Part shown: one piece after another, positions 25,727 through 35,629 of the stretch
How the letters are laid out: every line of letters starts with the position of its first letter
How positions within the stretch are numbered: position 1 is the stretch's first letter
Assembly: GCF_019649015.1 (NCBI RefSeq)
Contig: NZ_BLPI01000001.1
Span: 3,095,001 to 3,159,000, forward strand
Direction: 5' to 3'
DNA: 64,000 nt
DNA from: Agarivorans litoreus
Lineage (GTDB): Bacteria; Pseudomonadota; Gammaproteobacteria; Enterobacterales; Celerinatantimonadaceae
Made by a program: the position numbers and the translations under genes
The notes under the pieces: generated by a model
What the model saw: only the letters and a program-made list of their open reading frames with translations
Databases searched by the model: none
Told to the model about the DNA's origin: nothing

Positions 25727-27259
25727 ATGGCAACGCTCAATCAAGAAGTTACTTTTGATAAATCGCTGCAACTGGTCTCAACCACCGATTTGCAAGGAGA
25801 TATCACTTACGCAAACGAGGCCTTTTGTGAGGTGGCGGGATACTCGCATGAAGAGTTGTTGGGGCAACACCATAATATTGTGCGCCACCCTGATATGCCC
25901 AAGGCCGCTTTTGCCGATTTATGGAAGAAGCTTAAAGCGGGTGAAGCGTGGCGAGGCATGGTAAAGAACCGCTGTAAAGATGGTCGCTATTATTGGGTAG
26001 ATGCTTACGTAACACCTCTCTATGAGGAAGGCCAGCATATTGGTTACCAGTCGGTGAGAGTATCGCCAAAATCAGAACACAAACAGCGAGCAGAGATGAT
26101 TTACCATAAGCTAAATAATGGTAAACATATTGAACCCTTATGGAGTGGCAGGTTAGCAAGAGTATGGGCGTCTGCCATTATTTTGCTGATGGGCTTACTG
26201 TGGGTGTCGATGAATATAGACAGTCGTTATGCCTTGCTAGAGTTGCTGTTTGTCGCTAGTTTATTTTTTCTTAATTTTAATGAGTTAGTCACAACGCCAT
26301 GGAAGCTCAATAAGCTTAAGCAATCGTTTGATAGCCCTAGCCGTTACATCTACGAAGGCACCGAGCTTTTTGATGTCGCTCGTTTTCATATTGGTTTATT
26401 GGAAGCGAGAATTAAAACCATACTTGGTCGCACAGCAGATTCAACCAAGCGCTTACAGATCCTTTCCAAAGAGCTCGCTACCATTTCTATCACTACCAGC
26501 AAGGCTGTCGACATTGAAACGGTAGAATTGGAGCAGTTATCTGCGGCCATTCATCAAATGTCGATGACCGCGTCAGAGATCAGCAATTCCACGGTAACCG
26601 CTACCGATAAAGTGGGTGAAACTCAAAAACACTGTGAGCAAACTCAATTCAATATGAGTGAAACGCGGCAGCAGGTAGAAACCTTGTCTGAGGACGTGCA
26701 ACAAGCAGCTAGCTTGGCTAAAGAGCTTACCGATGACGCAGATGGTATTGCTAAGGTGATGGAAGAAATCCAAGGCATTGCTTATCAAACTAATCTGCTA
26801 GCTTTAAATGCTGCCATTGAAGCTGCGCGAGCGGGGGAAAAGGGCCGAGGTTTTTCGGTGGTTGCCGATGAAGTAAGAGCGCTCTCTAATCGCACTCATC
26901 AAGCTACTGGTTTGATCGAGCAATCGGTGGAGAAGATGCAAAAAAGCTTGGCATCTTGGGAGGAAAGAATGACTCAGAGCAGCGGCCAGGCAGAGCAGTG
27001 TTTGCTTACCGCAAGTCGTAGCTCCGAGTTGGTGGCTGATATATCGAATATGATGAATGAGATATACGATGTCTCTACCACCATTTCAGTGGCAGCCGAA
27101 CAGCAGTCTGTAGTGAGTGCCAATATTTCGGAAAATGTGGCTAAAATTAGCCAGCTAAGCCAAGAAACCAAACAGCATGCCAGTGAACTACAATCCAGCA
27201 GCAGTGAGCTGGCCCAAAAGTCTAATGATATCGCTTCGCTGTCAGATATGTTTGCCTAA
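25727..27259 (+). CDS. Aer-like methyl-accepting chemotaxis receptor with N-terminal PAS domain
   Basis: 510 residues. A PAS domain (about 10-115) opens with [18 protein letters not shown] and has the Aer-like segments [21 protein letters not shown] and [13 protein letters not shown], the type that binds FAD in the aerotaxis receptor. Two adjacent membrane helices (about 145-185) form a short hairpin with no large periplasmic domain. A signalling domain follows with the conserved hairpin [20 protein letters not shown]. It should sense redox or oxygen status and control CheA. No che genes lie nearby. Its last four bases overlap the convergent DUF1330 gene. Confidence 0.9.
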
Positions 27260-27546
27260 ACGTCGTTACTGTAACTGCTAATATGTACCTCTGCAGCCCT
27301 ATCGCGCAGAGGTACAAGCGATTGATAAGACCGCGAATAATACCAGCTCTCTAGTTGTTCAACACTGTCAAATTTGATCACCACACTTTGCTCAAATTGG
27401 CTAGAACCCGCCAGTTGCTTATTCCATTGACCGCGTAGCAATACCTTGGCTTGATAGGGTGTTAAAGACTCGCCCACAGCCTTAACATATTGTTGCCAAA
27501 GAGTCGGATTTTTAATGTTAACTTGTCCCAACAAATACGCTGCCAT
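27256..27546 (-). CDS. DUF1330 domain protein
   Basis: 96 residues with the DUF1330 pattern: [20 protein letters not shown] at the start, the VLLRGQ strand, [17 protein letters not shown] in the middle and the [10 protein letters not shown] end. A ferredoxin-like fold is expected and the function is unknown. It overlaps the end of the Aer-like gene by four bases, tail to tail. Confidence 0.85.
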
Positions 27547-27670
27547 AATGCCTCAAAACTTGTTTTCCTTATTGCTTTTAAAACTAGCCTTAATATGCTC
27601 ACTTGGAAACCAATAAAATATCTAAATAAAGCCTAATGGTCTTTTCTCTAAGCGCTTGTATACTTTTGAT

Positions 27671-29590
27671 ATGAGTGAAGAAAATTTAGCACTGGTATTA
27701 GCCGGCCCAATCTTAAGACAAATCAGCACTACTAAGCTGAGCATGTGGATTGCCACCTCGCAAGCTATAGAGCTACAACTTAGCTTGCAAGCAGAGGGCA
27801 AGTCGCCGCAGTTGTTTGATCATCAGCTCATCATGCAAACTAGCCAATGCATTTGTGCTGGTGAGCGTCTTTATTATTACTTAATTGATCTAGAACTTAA
27901 GTCGGCTTTGCCTGTCGATACTTGGGTTAGCTACGATTTAGGCCTTATTAAAGCGGGTGAATCTGAGCCTTTAACATGGCGAGATTGGGCGCCAGAACTG
28001 GTGTATCCACCGCGCAGTTTACCGGGTTTTGTGGTACCTAATAAGGTAAAGCAAATGCTACATGGCTCATGCCGTAAACCGCACTTTGCTAGTGGTGATG
28101 GTTTGGTAAGAGCTGATGCTTGGTTGGCCGAACAAAAGTTAGATAACTGGCCAAGTTTGCTGATGCTAAGTGGCGATCAAGTCTACGCCGACGACGTTGC
28201 TACTCCCATGCTAGTCGCTATTCACCAGTTAATTGCCCGTTTAGGTTTGGCGAATGAGCCTTTTCAAGACAGTAAACTAGCCGCTAGCGAACAACTTCAT
28301 GCTCAAGGGCACTATTTATCGCGCCAAGAGTTATTGCCTAAAGAGGGAGTGGAACTGGCAGCCAATAAAGCTTTGTTTAGTGCGGTAAAGAAACCTATTT
28401 TCACCTCTGATCATGCTAACAATCATTTGATTTCTTTAGCCGAAATGCTCGCCATGTACTTGTTAGTGTGGTCACCCAGTGCGTGGACAGGCATAGAAAT
28501 GAACCTGCCCGACTCATTAAGTTTGGAGCAACTGGACGAGTTTGTTAAGCAGCGCGAAACCCTTGAAGGTTTTGTTGCGGGTTTAGCTAAAGTACAGCGC
28601 CTAATGGCACATTTGCCTTGCGCGATGATGTTTGATGACCATGATGTCACCGACGATTGGAATTTAACCGCAGCTTGGGAGCAAAGTGCCTACGGTCATC
28701 CCTTTTCTAAACGCATTATTGGCAACGCTTTAGTGGCCTATTTTCTATGCCAAGGTTGGGGCAATGCACCAGACAACTTTTCAGAGAAGCTGATGGGCGA
28801 ACTGCAAGCAAGCTTGTTGGCTCCTGGTGGTCAGCAGCATTTAGATTTAATCGATACGCTACTTGGCTACCCACAGTGGCATTACCATTGGGAGACCGAA
28901 CCTAAGTTATTGGTGTTGGATACCAGAACCCATCGCTGGCGCTCGGAGCGTAACCTTAATTCACCGTCGGGTTTGATGGATTGGGAAGCGCTTACCGATT
29001 TACAGCAGCAATTGATTGGCTTAGATAGCGTTATATTAGTGTCACCTGCACCGATGTTTGGGGTAAAGCTTATTGAAGTGATTCAGCGCCTATTCACCTT
29101 GGCAGGAAAACCGCTGCTGGTGGATGCAGAAAACTGGATGGCGCACCCTGGTTCGGCAAACGCGTTATTAAACTTATTTCGTCACCCGAAAACGCCACAG
29201 CACTTTGTGATTTTGTCTGGTGATGTGCATTACTCTTTTGCTTATCAAATTCAACTGCGTGGCAGAGAAGGGGGGCCCGATATTTGGCAAATTACTAGCA
29301 GCGGCATAAAAAACCAATTTCCCGAAGGCTTGCTTAATACCCTTGATCGGATTAATCGCTGGCTATATTCACCTCGTTCACCACTTAACTGGTTTACTCG
29401 TCGTAGACGAATGCGGATTGTGCCTCATCGACCAGAAAATGCTGCACGTGGTGAGCGCTTACTTAATGCTTCTGGCATTGGTTTGCTTAAGCTAAATAGT
29501 GATGGCTCTCCCAAGGCGGTGCTGCAATTAACCGCCAAGGGAGAGGCGGTGGCATTTGAAATGTCTGAGCAAGACGCGCGCTGGGAATAA
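27671..29590 (+). CDS. PhoD-like (alkaline phosphatase D family) phosphatase
   Basis: 639 residues, no signal peptide, so apparently cytoplasmic. Phosphatase motifs appear in order: the GSCRKPH segment, MLSGDQVYADDV, MMFDDHDVTDDWN and ILSGDVHYSFAY, the metal-binding Asp, Asn/Asp and His residues of the metallophosphatase fold as in PhoD. An N-terminal beta domain (about 1-125) precedes. The ATG at 27671 is the first ATG in frame; a TTG at 27656 is less likely. It lies 97 bases before the MMPL gene on the same strand, so it may belong to the same unit. The substrate is not known. Confidence 0.85.
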   Translation: MSEENLALVLAGPILRQISTTKLSMWIATSQAIELQLSLQAEGKSPQLFDHQLIMQTSQCICAGERLYYYLIDLELKSALPVDTWVSYDLGLIKAGESEPLTWRDWAPELVYPPRSLPGFVVPNKVKQMLHGSCRKPHFASGDGLVRADAWLAEQKLDNWPSLLMLSGDQVYADDVATPMLVAIHQLIARLGLANEPFQDSKLAASEQLHAQGHYLSRQELLPKEGVELAANKALFSAVKKPIFTSDHANNHLISLAEMLAMYLLVWSPSAWTGIEMNLPDSLSLEQLDEFVKQRETLEGFVAGLAKVQRLMAHLPCAMMFDDHDVTDDWNLTAAWEQSAYGHPFSKRIIGNALVAYFLCQGWGNAPDNFSEKLMGELQASLLAPGGQQHLDLIDTLLGYPQWHYHWETEPKLLVLDTRTHRWRSERNLNSPSGLMDWEALTDLQQQLIGLDSVILVSPAPMFGVKLIEVIQRLFTLAGKPLLVDAENWMAHPGSANALLNLFRHPKTPQHFVILSGDVHYSFAYQIQLRGREGGPDIWQITSSGIKNQFPEGLLNTLDRINRWLYSPRSPLNWFTRRRRMRIVPHRPENAARGERLLNASGIGLLKLNSDGSPKAVLQLTAKGEAVAFEMSEQDARWE

Positions 29591-29687
29591 ACCTTTTTTG
29601 TAACTGATTCATTTTTATTGAAAATAAATTGCGTGTTGCTTGGTCTAGTTAAACAGGTAGTTATTTTTAGTTAATAAAAGGCGGACT

Positions 29688-31793
29688 ATGCAGCAAACCA
29701 AGGCCACAAGGTTTATCCTAAGCATGCAACACGCTTGGGTAAAATTTGGCTGGCTGTTGCTGCTAATAGTTGCCTTAATGGGCTTACCCAAACTTAGCTT
29801 GCAACCCAGTATTCATGCCTATTTTTCCAAGAATGATCCAGAGCTTATTGCTTTAAGTAAATTTGAACAGCAGTTTGGTGCTGTTGCTAATCTTCAGGTT
29901 TTGCTCTTCGGCTCTCAAAGCTGGACCAGCCCAAATCAACTCGCTTTACTTCAGAGTATTAGTCAGCAGTTACTGCTACTTAAGGGAGTTGAAGCTGTTA
30001 GTCCAACAACCGAACTAGCCTTGCAATCGGCCTTACCTCCCACACTAGCAAAACAGCTAGTTAGCGAAGATGGTTTAAGTGTATTGCTTAGCCTAAATGT
30101 AGCGCCAAATATTGCGGAACAGGCGAAGCTTGTGCCAGAGTTTTTCTCGCTGCTTGATAATGTGCTGCAAGAGTTTGCAGCTGAAGGAGTCTCTTATCAA
30201 TACGCAGGAGAGCTAGCGCTAAGTCAGCAATATCTTAAGGTGTTAAAACATGATTTGAGCTGGTTTGCCCCTGCGCTGATCATCAGCTTTGCCTTGTTAT
30301 TTACTTTGGTTATTCGCAATCTGCGGTGGTTAGCTGCCATGGCCAGCTGCGCCTTATTTAGCTTGCTGCTTACGTTGGGGCTAAGTGGTTGGTTGGGTTT
30401 AAAATTGGCGGCGATTAGTGCTTTTATTCCCTTGGTGATAATTAGTCTCATCATGGCCTATTGCAGCCATTTATATTTTGCATGGCGAGAACAGTTAGTA
30501 GAGGGCAACGATAGCTATCAGGCTATATTGGGCGCTTTGGAGCACAAGTTCTCACCTTTGCTTTGGGGAGCATTAACCACTGCAGCAGGTTTCTTATTAT
30601 TGAATCTAAGCCCTTCCCCCCCGATTGCTGACTTTGGCTTAATGGTGGCATTTTCAGTGCTCATTAACGGCTTGGCCTGTTGCTCCCTGCTGCCTTGGTG
30701 GCTAAAAGGCATTACATATTCAAAAAATATAAACACAAAACAACCCGCTAAATTAATTAACTTTTCTCTTTTGCTTAAGTATCGACGCGTTATTTTGCTG
30801 GCCGCACTTGTTGTGAGCTTAGTGGCGGGGTGGGCGGTAAGTCAGCTGCGCTTTGACGATGATCCTTTAAACTACTTTAAAGCCGATAATGCTTTCTCTT
30901 TGAGCAGAGATAAGCTGCAGCAACAGTTTTTAGGTTTACATAGTGTGCGCTATCAGCTCAGCGAAGAGAGCGATGATCCTTTGGTTCGCTCAGAGCCATT
31001 AAGCCGATTGTTAAGCTACCTAAATCAGCAAGCTGAAGTTCGCCAAGTAAACAGCAAACACGATTGGTTAGATTGGTTTGCGCAAGACCCAACAGCAATT
31101 ATGAGTATGTCTACGGTGCAGCAAAGTGAGCTTGATCTAGCTAAACAGGCAGAGTTGCTCACGGTATGGTTACAGCCTTTAAGCAATCGCCAGCTTATTG
31201 AATTTGAGCAAGGTGTTGCACAGTGGGCGGCGGCTGAGCAAATCCAATTATCACCGGCTTATAGCAGCAACCTCATTTTTGCTAAGTTTAATCAAGCTAA
31301 TGGCCAAGCGATGTTGCTGTCTTTTAGCTTGGCGTTTTTGTTAGTGGCCTTGGTGGTGCTAGTGTTAAAACGCAGTGGGTACCTAATGGTGCTAGCACTG
31401 CTGGCTAACGCCATTCCGTTAGTATGGGTATTTGCTCTATGGCAACTATTTGGTCAACACTTAAGCTTAGGCAGCGCGGTGGTGATGGGCATGATGCTCG
31501 GCATTATTGTTGATGATAGTTTGCACATATTGCTTAAGGTTGATCCGGTGCGTGGTGGTGCCAAGCTGCAGCAAGGTATGGCTAGCATTACTCCCGCTTT
31601 GTTGCTCACTTCTGGAGCGCTAACGGTTGGTTTCGCCCTAGCTTATCTATCTGATTTTTTGCCTATTCAGCAAATGGGCTTGCTCTCAGCGCTTACCCTG
31701 TTATTAGCCTTGTTGGTGGACTTATTTATACTGCCTTTGTGTTTACCTCTTGCTAAAAGCCGCTTGTCAGCAGAGTTAGGGGGGCAGCCATGA
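29688..31793 (+). CDS. MMPL/RND-family membrane transporter
   Basis: 701 residues with two repeats of a membrane helix, a periplasmic loop of about 140-170 residues and a five-helix bundle, the architecture of RND lipid transporters (MMPL, HpnN-like). The second bundle has MGMMLGIIVDDSLHILL, where the acidic residues normally carry protons. The first has ISLIMAYCSHLYFAW at the same place. Such proteins move lipids or hydrophobic compounds out of the inner membrane. Its stop overlaps the start of the next gene (ATGA), and that one overlaps the KAS III gene, so the three are an operon. A lipid-like product made by the downstream enzymes would be its natural cargo. Confidence 0.88.
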   Translation: MQQTKATRFILSMQHAWVKFGWLLLLIVALMGLPKLSLQPSIHAYFSKNDPELIALSKFEQQFGAVANLQVLLFGSQSWTSPNQLALLQSISQQLLLLKGVEAVSPTTELALQSALPPTLAKQLVSEDGLSVLLSLNVAPNIAEQAKLVPEFFSLLDNVLQEFAAEGVSYQYAGELALSQQYLKVLKHDLSWFAPALIISFALLFTLVIRNLRWLAAMASCALFSLLLTLGLSGWLGLKLAAISAFIPLVIISLIMAYCSHLYFAWREQLVEGNDSYQAILGALEHKFSPLLWGALTTAAGFLLLNLSPSPPIADFGLMVAFSVLINGLACCSLLPWWLKGITYSKNINTKQPAKLINFSLLLKYRRVILLAALVVSLVAGWAVSQLRFDDDPLNYFKADNAFSLSRDKLQQQFLGLHSVRYQLSEESDDPLVRSEPLSRLLSYLNQQAEVRQVNSKHDWLDWFAQDPTAIMSMSTVQQSELDLAKQAELLTVWLQPLSNRQLIEFEQGVAQWAAAEQIQLSPAYSSNLIFAKFNQANGQAMLLSFSLAFLLVALVVLVLKRSGYLMVLALLANAIPLVWVFALWQLFGQHLSLGSAVVMGMMLGIIVDDSLHILLKVDPVRGGAKLQQGMASITPALLLTSGALTVGFALAYLSDFLPIQQMGLLSALTLLLALLVDLFILPLCLPLAKSRLSAELGGQP

Positions 31794-32500
31794 AACGACA
31801 TACTATGGGCAATTGTTTTGCCGCCAAGCTAGCGACACCGAGCTTAAACTTGCAGCACCCTATTGCTAGTTGGAGCAAACAATATGCAGGCCATCCTTTA
31901 GATTTTTCTTCAGCACATACCGAGGCGCTGGCGTTGTTGATGCCGTTATTGTTGTGTGGCGAACAATCGGCCCAATTGGTGTTTCAGCAGCAAGCGTTGC
32001 AATTAAGTCAGCAACAATGCGCCGATTCAGTATTAGCCTTAAATGAAGTAGAGGCAGATGAAGCGTGGCATGATGAAGCGCTACAAACGGTTTTTTCTCA
32101 ACTGCCAGAGCTTGCTGAACAGCATAAGGTTCGCCGTACCGCTCAGCGCTTTTATGCTGGCTTAGGCCGTAGCTTGAGTTTACAGCAACAGTTTGTGCGA
32201 ATTGCCAGTTTAGATGCCTGTGTAACCCAGCTGATGCAGTTGATTGAGCGCGGCAGTATTGGTCGTCATCATCCTTTTTCTTTGCTGTGCGGCTTAATTA
32301 AAAAAGACGAAGCCAAGCATGTGTATGTGAGCAAGCACTTTGCTCAGCATCTTGGGGCAAGTGTGAGTGACATGGCAGAGGAGCGTTTGTGGGTGCTTGG
32401 TGCATTAATGCAGCTGCTCAAACAGCAAGCCGATCAGTTTGAAATTATAGGCGTTGATTTGGATAAGTTAGAAAAAAGATTGGAGCTAAAATGGCAGTAA
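31790..32500 (+). CDS. Ferritin-like putative diiron protein
   Basis: 236 residues, mostly helical, no signal peptide and no family recognised by name. It carries two ExxH motifs 83 residues apart, Glu91-xx-His94 (ADEAWH) and Glu174-xx-His177 (KDEAKH), with further Glu at 58 and 153 at the right spacing. This is the E, ExxH, E, ExxH pattern of ferritin-like diiron oxygenases and desaturases. Location between an MMPL transporter (4-base overlap) and a KAS III enzyme (10-base overlap) suggests oxidation or desaturation of the acyl product. The pattern is read directly; the diiron role is inference. Confidence 0.7.
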   Translation: MKRHTMGNCFAAKLATPSLNLQHPIASWSKQYAGHPLDFSSAHTEALALLMPLLLCGEQSAQLVFQQQALQLSQQQCADSVLALNEVEADEAWHDEALQTVFSQLPELAEQHKVRRTAQRFYAGLGRSLSLQQQFVRIASLDACVTQLMQLIERGSIGRHHPFSLLCGLIKKDEAKHVYVSKHFAQHLGASVSDMAEERLWVLGALMQLLKQQADQFEIIGVDLDKLEKRLELKWQ

Positions 32501-33540
32501 AATTTGCAAGCCATTCATTAAACCTATTGGCGGCTAATTGGTTTGTGCCACATCAGCCGGTTGCTAATGAACAGTTGTTAGGCTACATGGCGGAGCAATG
32601 TGGTTGGCGCATGGCACGTAAAGCCCAAATTATTGCCAAACGTTTAGGGGTGGAGCGGCGCTTTTTAAGCCGCAGTTTTGCCCAGCCACGCAGTCAAGCT
32701 TCACCAACTGGCGTGGATATGGCAAAGCAGGTGTTACAGCAGTGCTTGCTGCAGTCGGATTTGCAGGTTGAGCAACTAGGGTATTTGTTAAGCCATACCT
32801 GTACGCCGCACACCCAAGTTCCGCCCAATGCAGCATGGTTGGCCGATGAGTTGGCGTATCACGGCGCTTATGCAGAGCTTCGCCAAGCCTGTACCGGTTT
32901 TGCCAATGGCTTGCAGCTAGCCAGCGCGTTATGTGCCGCAGACCAAGCGCCAGTGGCTATTGTGGGCAGTGAAACGGGCTCGGTGTATTTCGATTTAGAT
33001 AAGCAATTTGTCGATCAGCAACAGTTAGTGAATTTTGTGCAAATGGGGGACGGTTGTGGTGGGGTTATTGTTGGCCCGGCTAGCCAGCAGGAGCGACTAA
33101 TCAAAGACATTTATTTAGGGCAGATTGGTCATAACAAAGCTCCTGGCTTTTACTTAGATGCTGGCGCCGATAGCGTGGGTGAGGGCAATATGGCGCGCTT
33201 TCATCATAATATTACTCAGGTGAAGGAAACTGGCTCACAGTTGTTCGAATTAGGCTTAGAAGCAGTGCTGTCGCGGGGTTATCAACTCAGTGACTTTAGG
33301 TACATTTTGCCGCATCAAGCCAATGGCCATATCGATAAACTACTGAGCAAAGCGCTTAACTATCCAAAAGAACAAATCATTAATGATGCAAAATCATTCG
33401 GTAATCTTGGTTCGGCGGCTATTTGGTTAAGCTTTGCTCGCTTACTTGAGAATTGCCCCTTAGAGCCCGGAGACCAAGTATTGGTGTTAGGCGCAGAAGC
33501 GACAAAATACCTTTATGGTGGTTTTGTTTATCAGCATTAG
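32491..33540 (+). CDS. 3-oxoacyl-ACP synthase III (KAS III) family protein
   Basis: 349 residues of the FabH-type thiolase fold. The Cys-His-Asn triad is complete: Cys134 in RQACTGFANG, His275 in ILPHQANGH and Asn305 in SFGNLGSAA. SHTCTPHTQVPPNAAWLA and QMGDGCGGVIVG are also typical. The C-terminal glycine loop reads GAEATKYLYGGF rather than the usual FabH form, so it is probably a specialised condensing enzyme and not the housekeeping FabH. It condenses an acyl starter with a malonyl- or acyl-thioester. GGAG sits five bases before the ATG. It is the last gene of the MMPL unit. Confidence 0.9.
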   Translation: MAVKFASHSLNLLAANWFVPHQPVANEQLLGYMAEQCGWRMARKAQIIAKRLGVERRFLSRSFAQPRSQASPTGVDMAKQVLQQCLLQSDLQVEQLGYLLSHTCTPHTQVPPNAAWLADELAYHGAYAELRQACTGFANGLQLASALCAADQAPVAIVGSETGSVYFDLDKQFVDQQQLVNFVQMGDGCGGVIVGPASQQERLIKDIYLGQIGHNKAPGFYLDAGADSVGEGNMARFHHNITQVKETGSQLFELGLEAVLSRGYQLSDFRYILPHQANGHIDKLLSKALNYPKEQIINDAKSFGNLGSAAIWLSFARLLENCPLEPGDQVLVLGAEATKYLYGGFVYQH

Positions 33541-33758
33541 GGTTTTATTTGGCTGATTTTTTCTGTGAGTTAACGCGGTACTTGTTGTCTTATTCTGCGA
33601 GTAACTATCTCACTGTTTCATTCTGTTTCACTCTCTTTTGAAGTACTTCAATTTTTGCCAATTTAACTTAGGCTGAAAGCTAGGTTGCCCTTCACTAAGG
33701 GTAAGATTAAGCATTGTGAAAGTGAATTGATTTCAAAGTGTTTGAGGGTGGACAAAGT

Positions 33759-34448
33759 ATGCAAGTAGCAGGTAAATGGGCCTTAGTGACTGGGGCAAGT
33801 CGAGGCGTGGGTTTACGCATTGCCAAAGCATTAGCCGCTAAAGGTGCCAAAGTAATTGTGCACAGTCGAAGCTTGAGCGCATCGCAAAAAGTGGTAGATG
33901 AGATTACCCGCCTGCAAGGCTTTGCGGTTGCAGTTGAGGCCGAGCTGTCTGATAACCAAGCTTTAGCCAATTTGGTGACTCAAGTTAATCAATTAACTCA
34001 TCAATCTTTGACGGTGTTATATAACAATGCCGCAATTATGACCCCTTGGCGAGATGATGCCGTGGTTCCTGCCTCAGATTACGCCTTAAGCTTTCAAGTA
34101 AATTGCATTGCACCAGCACGTTTATGTGATGCCTTTTTACCGCAAATGAAGCAACAAGGTGAGGGGCGTATCGTTAATGTTACCTCTGGCATTGCCGACC
34201 AACCTCAGCTTATGGCTTATAGCTGTTCTAAAGCAGCCTTGGATCGTTATGTGCGCGACATGTTGCCTAGCTTAGCTGGCAGCGGTGTATTAATGAACTT
34301 AATGGATCCTGGCTGGTTGCAGACCGACTTAGGCGGAGAGCAAGCGCCTAATCATCCAGATTCAGTATTACCGGGCGCGTTAGTCCCGGTATTACTTGAT
34401 GATGAGGCCGGTAGTGGCCAGCTCTACTGCGCTCAGGATTACCGTTAA
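33759..34448 (+). CDS. Short-chain dehydrogenase/reductase
   Basis: 229 residues of the SDR fold. The cofactor motif TGASRGVG is at 11-18, NNAA marks the first strand junction, NVTSG holds the catalytic Ser, and YSCSK gives the catalytic Tyr and Lys. The end is LYCAQDYR. It should oxidise or reduce an alcohol/ketone with NAD(P). A GTG at 33738 is in frame, but the ATG at 33759 has GAGGGTGG about eight bases upstream. It follows the KAS III gene after 218 bases on the same strand; a role in the same pathway, for example reduction of a beta-keto product, is possible but not shown. Confidence 0.88.
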   Translation: MQVAGKWALVTGASRGVGLRIAKALAAKGAKVIVHSRSLSASQKVVDEITRLQGFAVAVEAELSDNQALANLVTQVNQLTHQSLTVLYNNAAIMTPWRDDAVVPASDYALSFQVNCIAPARLCDAFLPQMKQQGEGRIVNVTSGIADQPQLMAYSCSKAALDRYVRDMLPSLAGSGVLMNLMDPGWLQTDLGGEQAPNHPDSVLPGALVPVLLDDEAGSGQLYCAQDYR

Positions 34449-34450
34449 GT

Positions 34451-35629
34451 TCAAACCCCAAGTGTAGGTGGTAGGCGGCCTCGGCCGGTTTTTTCTTTGC
34501 TGGCTGTTATTAGCATATAAATACAGGTACTACTTAGCACCAAGGCAAAGTAGAGAGGTAAGCTTAACACAGAGCCTTGCAGTGCACCTGCTACTAGCGG
34601 ACCTGCTATTGAACCAACGCTGTAACTAATCAACATTAGCTCAGTAATTGCCACAATTTTGTCGACAGCTTCGTTGACGCAAGCCTGTGAAATAGCGATT
34701 GGATATATTGAGAATGCGGCGCCACCCAATACAAACAGGCTCGATGATAAAATCAACCAAGAATCGGCCATTGCAAGTGCTAGGGCCGCGAGTACTCCGG
34801 TAGCGGCCGCTAAGGCTTGTAACAGGGTTTTGTTAAAGCGCGCCGACAAATAGCTGCTTAATGGCTGCACCAACATACCGCCTAATATCAAGCTTGCCAT
34901 TAACAGGCCTACCTGTTCACTCCAGTGGGTTTGCGAATTTAAGTAGCTGGGTAGTAGTCCATAAATAGGCCCAAGCACCAGTCCTGAAACCATACAACCC
35001 AGTACGGCGGGTTTACTTAATCCGGCAAGGTCTTGAAACGATACACGGCTATGCTCGGTTTGCTGGGGACAGCCTTGACGATTAAATATTGGTGCTAACA
35101 CGGCTAAGGCTAAGAGGGCTGCAATACTTAAAAATGGTAACGAACCGCTTATGCCAAGCGGCTTAATCAATAATTGGCCTGCAGCACTGCCAGCATATAG
35201 GGTTAGCATGTAAATACCCAAGCGAGAGGCGCGTTGTTTGTCATCGTTAACCAATAATAACCAAGACTCAACTACTACAAAAATCCCTGCCGTTGCCGCG
35301 CCAGCTATTAGGCGCAAGGCAAGCCATGCACCGGCATACGGGAGCATCCACATTAACAATACAGTGCTTAGCAGCAGCAATAAACAGCTAATGAAGGCCG
35401 TCCGATGGCCAATAACTGCAATTAAGCGTTGCATCTGTAGCGCACCAAATAACAAGCCGGCGTAATAGGCACTAGCTAACCACGCACTTAGCGACAGTGG
35501 CAGCGCTAGCTCGCTTAAGGCTAGTGGCAATAGGCTCATTAAGTAGCCTGAAGCAACCGCAAATAAGCCTAAACCTAACAATGGGCTAAGGATCCCTGAG
35601 TTTGGCTGTTGCGCAGAATTGTTTAACAT
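34451..35629 (-). CDS. Major facilitator superfamily transporter
   Basis: 392 residues with twelve hydrophobic segments in two halves. The loop between helices 2 and 3 has the MFS form (GALQMQRLIAVIGHRTAF), and the fourth and fifth helices carry RLIAGAATAGIFVVVESWLL, a pattern of the YcaD/UMF-type MFS group. The substrate is unknown. The gene is convergent with the SDR gene, with two bases between the stops. Confidence 0.85.
   Translation of the reverse strand: MLNNSAQQPNSGILSPLLGLGLFAVASGYLMSLLPLALSELALPLSLSAWLASAYYAGLLFGALQMQRLIAVIGHRTAFISCLLLLLSTVLLMWMLPYAGAWLALRLIAGAATAGIFVVVESWLLLVNDDKQRASRLGIYMLTLYAGSAAGQLLIKPLGISGSLPFLSIAALLALAVLAPIFNRQGCPQQTEHSRVSFQDLAGLSKPAVLGCMVSGLVLGPIYGLLPSYLNSQTHWSEQVGLLMASLILGGMLVQPLSSYLSARFNKTLLQALAAATGVLAALALAMADSWLILSSSLFVLGGAAFSIYPIAISQACVNEAVDKIVAITELMLISYSVGSIAGPLVAGALQGSVLSLPLYFALVLSSTCIYMLITASKEKTGRGRLPPTLGV

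Follow-up and report, generated by a model that had tools for sequence, protein, structure and literature searches.

Three overlapping genes encoding an MMPL transporter, a ferritin-like diiron candidate (hereafter the middle protein) and a β-ketoacyl-acyl carrier protein synthase III (KAS III) occupy positions 29688-33540 of a 64,000-nucleotide stretch of Agarivorans litoreus DNA (contig NZ_BLPI01000001.1, positions 3,095,001 to 3,159,000; hereafter the window). These three genes are a conserved unit, found in an arrangement far beyond chance, and on balance we favor the view that the trio is a horizontally mobile cassette for lipid biosynthesis and export, which combines acyl condensation, acyl oxidation and export. 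The three overlapping open reading frames described in the original prediction were confirmed, all on the forward strand: an MMPL/RND-type (HAE3/HpnN-like) exporter gene of 701 codons (29688..31793), the middle gene of 236 codons (31790..32500) and a KAS III-type condensing enzyme gene of 349 codons (32491..33540). The consecutive overlaps are 4 bases between the MMPL and middle genes and 10 bases between the middle and KAS III genes. No promoter or terminator signal exceeding shuffles was found in a scan, and no description of the trio was found in a literature search restricted to open-licence papers.

In the proposed pathway, KAS III would condense an acyl thioester of medium or long chain length with a partner, either malonyl or a different nucleophile. 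Using O2, the diiron protein would oxidise the acyl chain by hydroxylation, desaturation or cleavage, either before or after the condensation, and the MMPL pump would then export the completed amphiphile from the inner membrane. Both the order of these steps and the kind of product exported are inferences.

Conservation and co-inheritance of the trio

Trio loci were sought with the middle protein in 84,980 species genomes by a scan that required short exact motifs, so the count is a lower bound. At least 27 named loci were found, all of them gammaproteobacterial by name. The KAS III gene lies directly downstream of the diiron gene in all 27, and in 23 of them the MMPL gene lies directly upstream, giving the order MMPL-diiron-KAS III. 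Loci of Agarivorans, Shewanella, Psychromonas and Paraferrimonas repeat the overlap of 10 bases that joins the diiron gene to the KAS III gene. Among named relatives, the nearest to carry the trio is Agarivorans sp. Toyoura001 (L017). Among 99 related genomes, in which the trio-type KAS III was called at E<1e-60, this enzyme and the middle protein are present together in 10, and the other 89 have neither. The distance matrices of the three proteins are congruent over 20 loci, with Mantel r values of 0.906, 0.941 and 0.917, as high as which none of 2000 permutations came. The trio had been proposed from the window alone, with its absence from all relatives named as the outcome that would undo the proposal; it is instead present in relatives, since the unit recurs, its members co-occur in the same 10 genomes and the matrices agree.

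The surroundings of the trio vary between genera, with different genomic sites and unrelated flanks, and its distribution is patchy inside genera. From the differing flanks and the patchy presence we infer that the trio is horizontally mobile. No match in PLSDB places it on plasmids.

The middle protein and its predicted metal site

The AlphaFold model of the middle protein is a helical bundle with a mean predicted local distance difference test score (pLDDT) of 94.3 and a predicted template modelling score (pTM) of 0.91. Six candidate ligands sit on four of the model helices: E58 (codon at 31961..31963) on helix 41-73, E91 and H94 (32060..32071) on helix 78-102, D142 (32213..32215) on helix 131-153, and E174 and H177 (32309..32320) on helix 162-187. 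All six are invariant in 28 homologues. Both of the ExxH motifs originally noted are thus borne out (E91xxH94 and E174xxH177), whereas of the two additional glutamates only E58 stands, the other being the aspartate D142. Because the predicted fold is confident and the ligand residues are conserved, a fold lacking a four-helix metal site is not what the structure prediction returned at the level of fold and residues. These results support the middle protein as a four-helix protein of the ferritin-like kind in which all six residues of a diiron-type ligand set are present.

By Foldseek and VIA-align, the match list of this model is headed by R2-like ligand-binding oxidases (R2lox) and cyanobacterial aldehyde-deformylating oxygenases (cADO). 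The top VIA match is the cADO structure 5ux2, with a Z value of 18.6, an rmsd of 3.1 and 192 aligned residues, and R2lox and the ribonucleotide reductase R2 subunit come after the cADOs with Z values of ~17. The middle protein shares with cADO (PF11266) the fold (about 190 of 220 residues aligned), the size, and a helical bundle carrying Glu, ExxH, an acidic residue and ExxH. The two differ in that their identity is only ~15% and no family match links them; the ligand pattern E, ExxH, E, ExxH of cADO is retained at five of six positions, with Asp at the third-helix position, where cADO has Glu. R2lox has a diiron or MnFe carboxylate site, and the middle protein, with which it shares the fold, is shorter, only 10-12% identical to it and located in a different operon.

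Given that cADOs hold the top VIA Z values, and that the first helix of the middle protein carries GEQ as in cADO, a cyanobacterial-type hydrocarbon pathway has to be considered, in which the diiron protein would act as an aldehyde-deformylating oxygenase converting fatty aldehydes to alkanes, which the MMPL protein would export. However, PF11266 gave no match for the window protein, among the families shown for 27 homologues, or genome-wide at E<=0.1, and the third-helix Glu is replaced by Asp. In addition, cADO pairs with acyl-acyl carrier protein (acyl-ACP) reductase, whereas the middle protein pairs with KAS III and MMPL. Such a reductase (TIGR04058) was not found over cut-off in five trio-bearing genomes, and KAS III would be left without a role. 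These last two reasons count against a simple alkane pathway, which we regard as improbable.

Another reading is that the middle protein is no enzyme of the pathway but an iron-storage or peroxide-scavenging protein of the rubrerythrin type that is co-transcribed by chance. Weak matches to Rubrerythrin and DUF455 in a few homologues speak for this idea, but the strict pairing with one type of KAS III in 27 loci and 10 genomes, as well as the position of cADO and R2-like oxidases at the head of the fold list, speak against it, and it appears quite improbable to us. The folds of COQ7, MiaE and rubrerythrin are not among the VIA matches listed, which excludes none of them. The middle protein had no match in Pfam, NCBIfam or the PDB by single-sequence search, and its profile, when run against the PDB, picked out nothing beyond one designed diiron protein (3.5e-5) and chance matches. 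This diiron oxidase candidate founds an undescribed family.

A cADO-like diiron enzyme acting on acyl chains has a described counterpart in BioE, a ferritin-like oxygenase that works on long-chain acyl-ACP, and has the ligands E, ExxH, E, ExxH; BioZ is a KAS III (PMC12915131). The published BioE enzymes are thus a precedent, demonstrating that a diiron oxygenase of cADO-like ferritin fold is able to act on acyl-ACP directly. Compared by description only, BioE of Elizabethkingia and Chlamydia shares with the middle protein a ferritin-like site of E, ExxH, acid and ExxH; its criterion reaction is the C7-C8 cleavage of acyl-ACP. The likeness raises the idea that the trio supplies a biotin precursor in the manner of BioE and BioZ, the diiron protein yielding pimeloyl-ACP by cleavage of acyl-ACP. 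Unlike BioE, the middle protein has an Asp ligand, has KAS III and MMPL as its partners and shows no linkage to biotin genes, none of which the neighbour listings place next to the trio. The A. litoreus genome itself has BioC over cut-off, and an MMPL exporter would make no sense for a vitamin precursor, so that we disfavor the biotin link and give it hardly any weight.

The condensing enzyme and the exporter

The third protein of the trio matches ACP_syn_III and its C-terminal counterpart in Pfam (1.4e-8 and 2.1e-16). The catalytic triad that had been called complete is indeed so: C134 (32890..32892), which aligns to FabH C112, H275 (33313..33315) and N305 (33403..33405), the latter two likewise placed by the FabH alignment, are invariant in 24 homologues. 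The enzyme is one of three KAS III proteins that the genome encodes, distinct from the housekeeping FabH, whose gene lies elsewhere in a plsX-fabH-fabD cluster. It is 23 and 28% identical to this FabH and to the one further KAS III encoded, respectively, while the trio KAS III members are 45-83% identical to one another. With FabH/KAS III enzymes and AbyA1 it shares the fold and the Cys-His-Asn triad. It nevertheless falls under every curated FabH cut-off (NF006829, 110.8 vs 249 bits; TIGR00747, 95.7 vs 292) and carries a distinctive C-terminal GAEATKYLYGGF motif.

In FabH, W32 and R151 clamp the adenine of coenzyme A (CoA), R249 docks the acyl carrier protein, and F87 forms the gate. At the positions of these E. 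coli FabH residues, no trio KAS III has Trp at W32, and the residues found are Leu/Met at R151, His/Tyr at R249 and Val/Leu at F87; the FabH of the A. litoreus genome has the same residues as E. coli FabH at the compared positions. The retention of the triad together with the replacement of the CoA-clamp and gate residues suggests that the trio KAS III retains condensing chemistry, probably with a different and larger acyl donor than acetyl-CoA.

The best profile match of the trio KAS III in the PDB is AbyA1, which condenses acyl-ACP to form a tetronate, at 114.8 bits vs 107.1 for the next, a FabH. AbyA1 is also first by fold with a Z value of 37.2, where rows within about 2 are near ties, and PqsD and StlD stand below it. 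Taken with the patchy distribution inside genera, the place of AbyA1 as closest solved KAS III by profile and fold, with PqsD and StlD next in the fold list, is what one would expect from a signal or secondary-metabolite pathway in the style of tetronate, quinolone or alkylresorcinol synthesis, in which KAS III would build a small signal from an acyl chain, to be modified by the diiron protein and secreted by the pump. Against this, FabH enzymes score nearly equally (107 vs 115 bits), and the neighbour listings show no conserved regulator, glyceryl-ACP or tailoring genes next to the trio. We consider this pathway unlikely.

The first protein of the trio matches the Pfam family MMPL (PF03176) at 2.2e-12, with 47 bits vs a cut-off of 20.5. 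It scores highest with the models of HAE3 and HpnN, which are lipid and hopanoid exporters, and shares with these transporters the two-half MMPL architecture and the Asp-Asp motif of transmembrane segment 10 (TM10), though it remains under their family cut-offs. This TM10 motif, DD[ST], is retained in all 22 trio MMPLs (GIIVDDSLH in the window). Unlike HpnN and HAE3, the same 22 proteins have all lost the TM4 aspartate, whereas the other MMPL protein of the host genome has both relay aspartates. Because the TM10 Asp-Asp pair is kept and the TM4 aspartate is lost, the trio pump may have a one-sided proton relay. A second MMPL gene of the host (L058:4544-6886, at about 3.272 Mb of C1 in its own genome) belongs to a co-directional cluster together with what are presumably outer-membrane-lipoprotein-sorting-like and DUF1302-like proteins. 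In one metagenome-assembled genome, the MMPL gene (L040:7785-9957) is broken into two open reading frames, either by a frameshift or by an assembly error.

Neighbouring genes and the proposed exported product

The PhoD-like phosphatase gene 98 bases upstream of the trio and the short-chain dehydrogenase/reductase (SDR) gene 218 bases downstream were both located correctly in the original prediction, but their possible membership in the pathway did not hold. In one genome of the same genus (G003), PhoD adjoins SDR with no trio between them, ~2.8 Mb away from the trio of that genome. In another (G006), which has no trio, the chemoreceptor, PhoD and major facilitator superfamily genes known from the window directly adjoin one another, with neither trio nor SDR between them, and SDR lies 33 kb away, and a third genome (G007) has both PhoD and SDR while the trio is missing. 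Since the two genes are adjacent away from the trio in G003 and present in the trio-less G006 and G007, they are bystanders, unlinked to the trio by descent. The layout of G006 looks as though the trio and SDR had been deleted there or had never been inserted. When this region (L091, G006:C1:1618000-1626000) is compared with window positions 25727-35629, the C-terminus of PhoD differs.

According to the neighbour listings of the trio loci, the sole recurrent neighbour across many lineages is a YHS-domain gene. It encodes a YHS-domain lipoprotein (PF04945) and lies upstream of the trio in divergent orientation in six loci (L033:7052-7513, L034:7017-7454, L036:6965-7477, L038, L040:7056-7493 and L042:6813-7304); in L041 (7275-7712) it is co-directional with the trio and 27 bases upstream of MMPL. 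YHS homologues are present in 10 of 10 trio-bearing genomes vs 24 of 89 other relatives, six of those ten belonging to one genus. Possibly this lipoprotein is a metal-related accessory protein. As for partners of the OleA type, no trio neighbour other than YHS is recurrent, and oleBCD was not searched genome-wide. A link to polyunsaturated fatty acid (Pfa) synthesis, raised by the Shewanella, Moritella and Psychromonas hosts, was rejected: PfaA is under cut-off in six trio-bearing Agarivorans genomes and in one other genome with the trio, G060.

Where an undescribed lipid or hydrocarbon pathway had been suggested, the findings fit best with an undescribed pathway that makes and exports an acyl lipid. 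A hydrocarbon product is unsupported, as no acyl-ACP reductase was found over cut-off in five trio-bearing genomes and the middle protein does not match PF11266. Several points weigh against a cassette for lipid biosynthesis and export. Genes for an acyl carrier protein, a ligase and a reductase are all missing from the unit itself. The proposed acyl-oxidase role is carried by fold similarity alone, and helical bundles score high easily; an hhalign comparison with a single cADO sequence (that of S. elongatus, identical to 4quw) gave a probability of 1.2%, which is not significant. The predicted metal site may differ from those of the known enzymes because the fourth carboxylate is Asp. Iron binding by the middle protein and O2 chemistry on an acyl chain are only predicted. 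Finally, the MMPL gene is missing in 4 of the 27 loci (two Psychromonas, Vibrio sinus and one Moritella), and export by the trio pump is thus not obligatory. We put forward only tentatively, as somewhat short of an even chance, the more specific proposal that the trio is an undescribed pathway in which a new diiron oxygenase family works directly with its own KAS III, yielding oxidised acyl products of a new class, and that the MMPL pump dedicated to their export has a proton relay on one side only.

With its two enzymes and single pump, the trio is compact and amenable to genetics, and its diiron candidate belongs to no named family. Its hosts Agarivorans, Shewanella and Psychromonas are culturable marine bacteria, and the enzyme pair occurs in Moritella. 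If the proposed pathway is true, it would extend the known O2-dependent reactions of acyl chains by one and add a further lipid to those that are exported.

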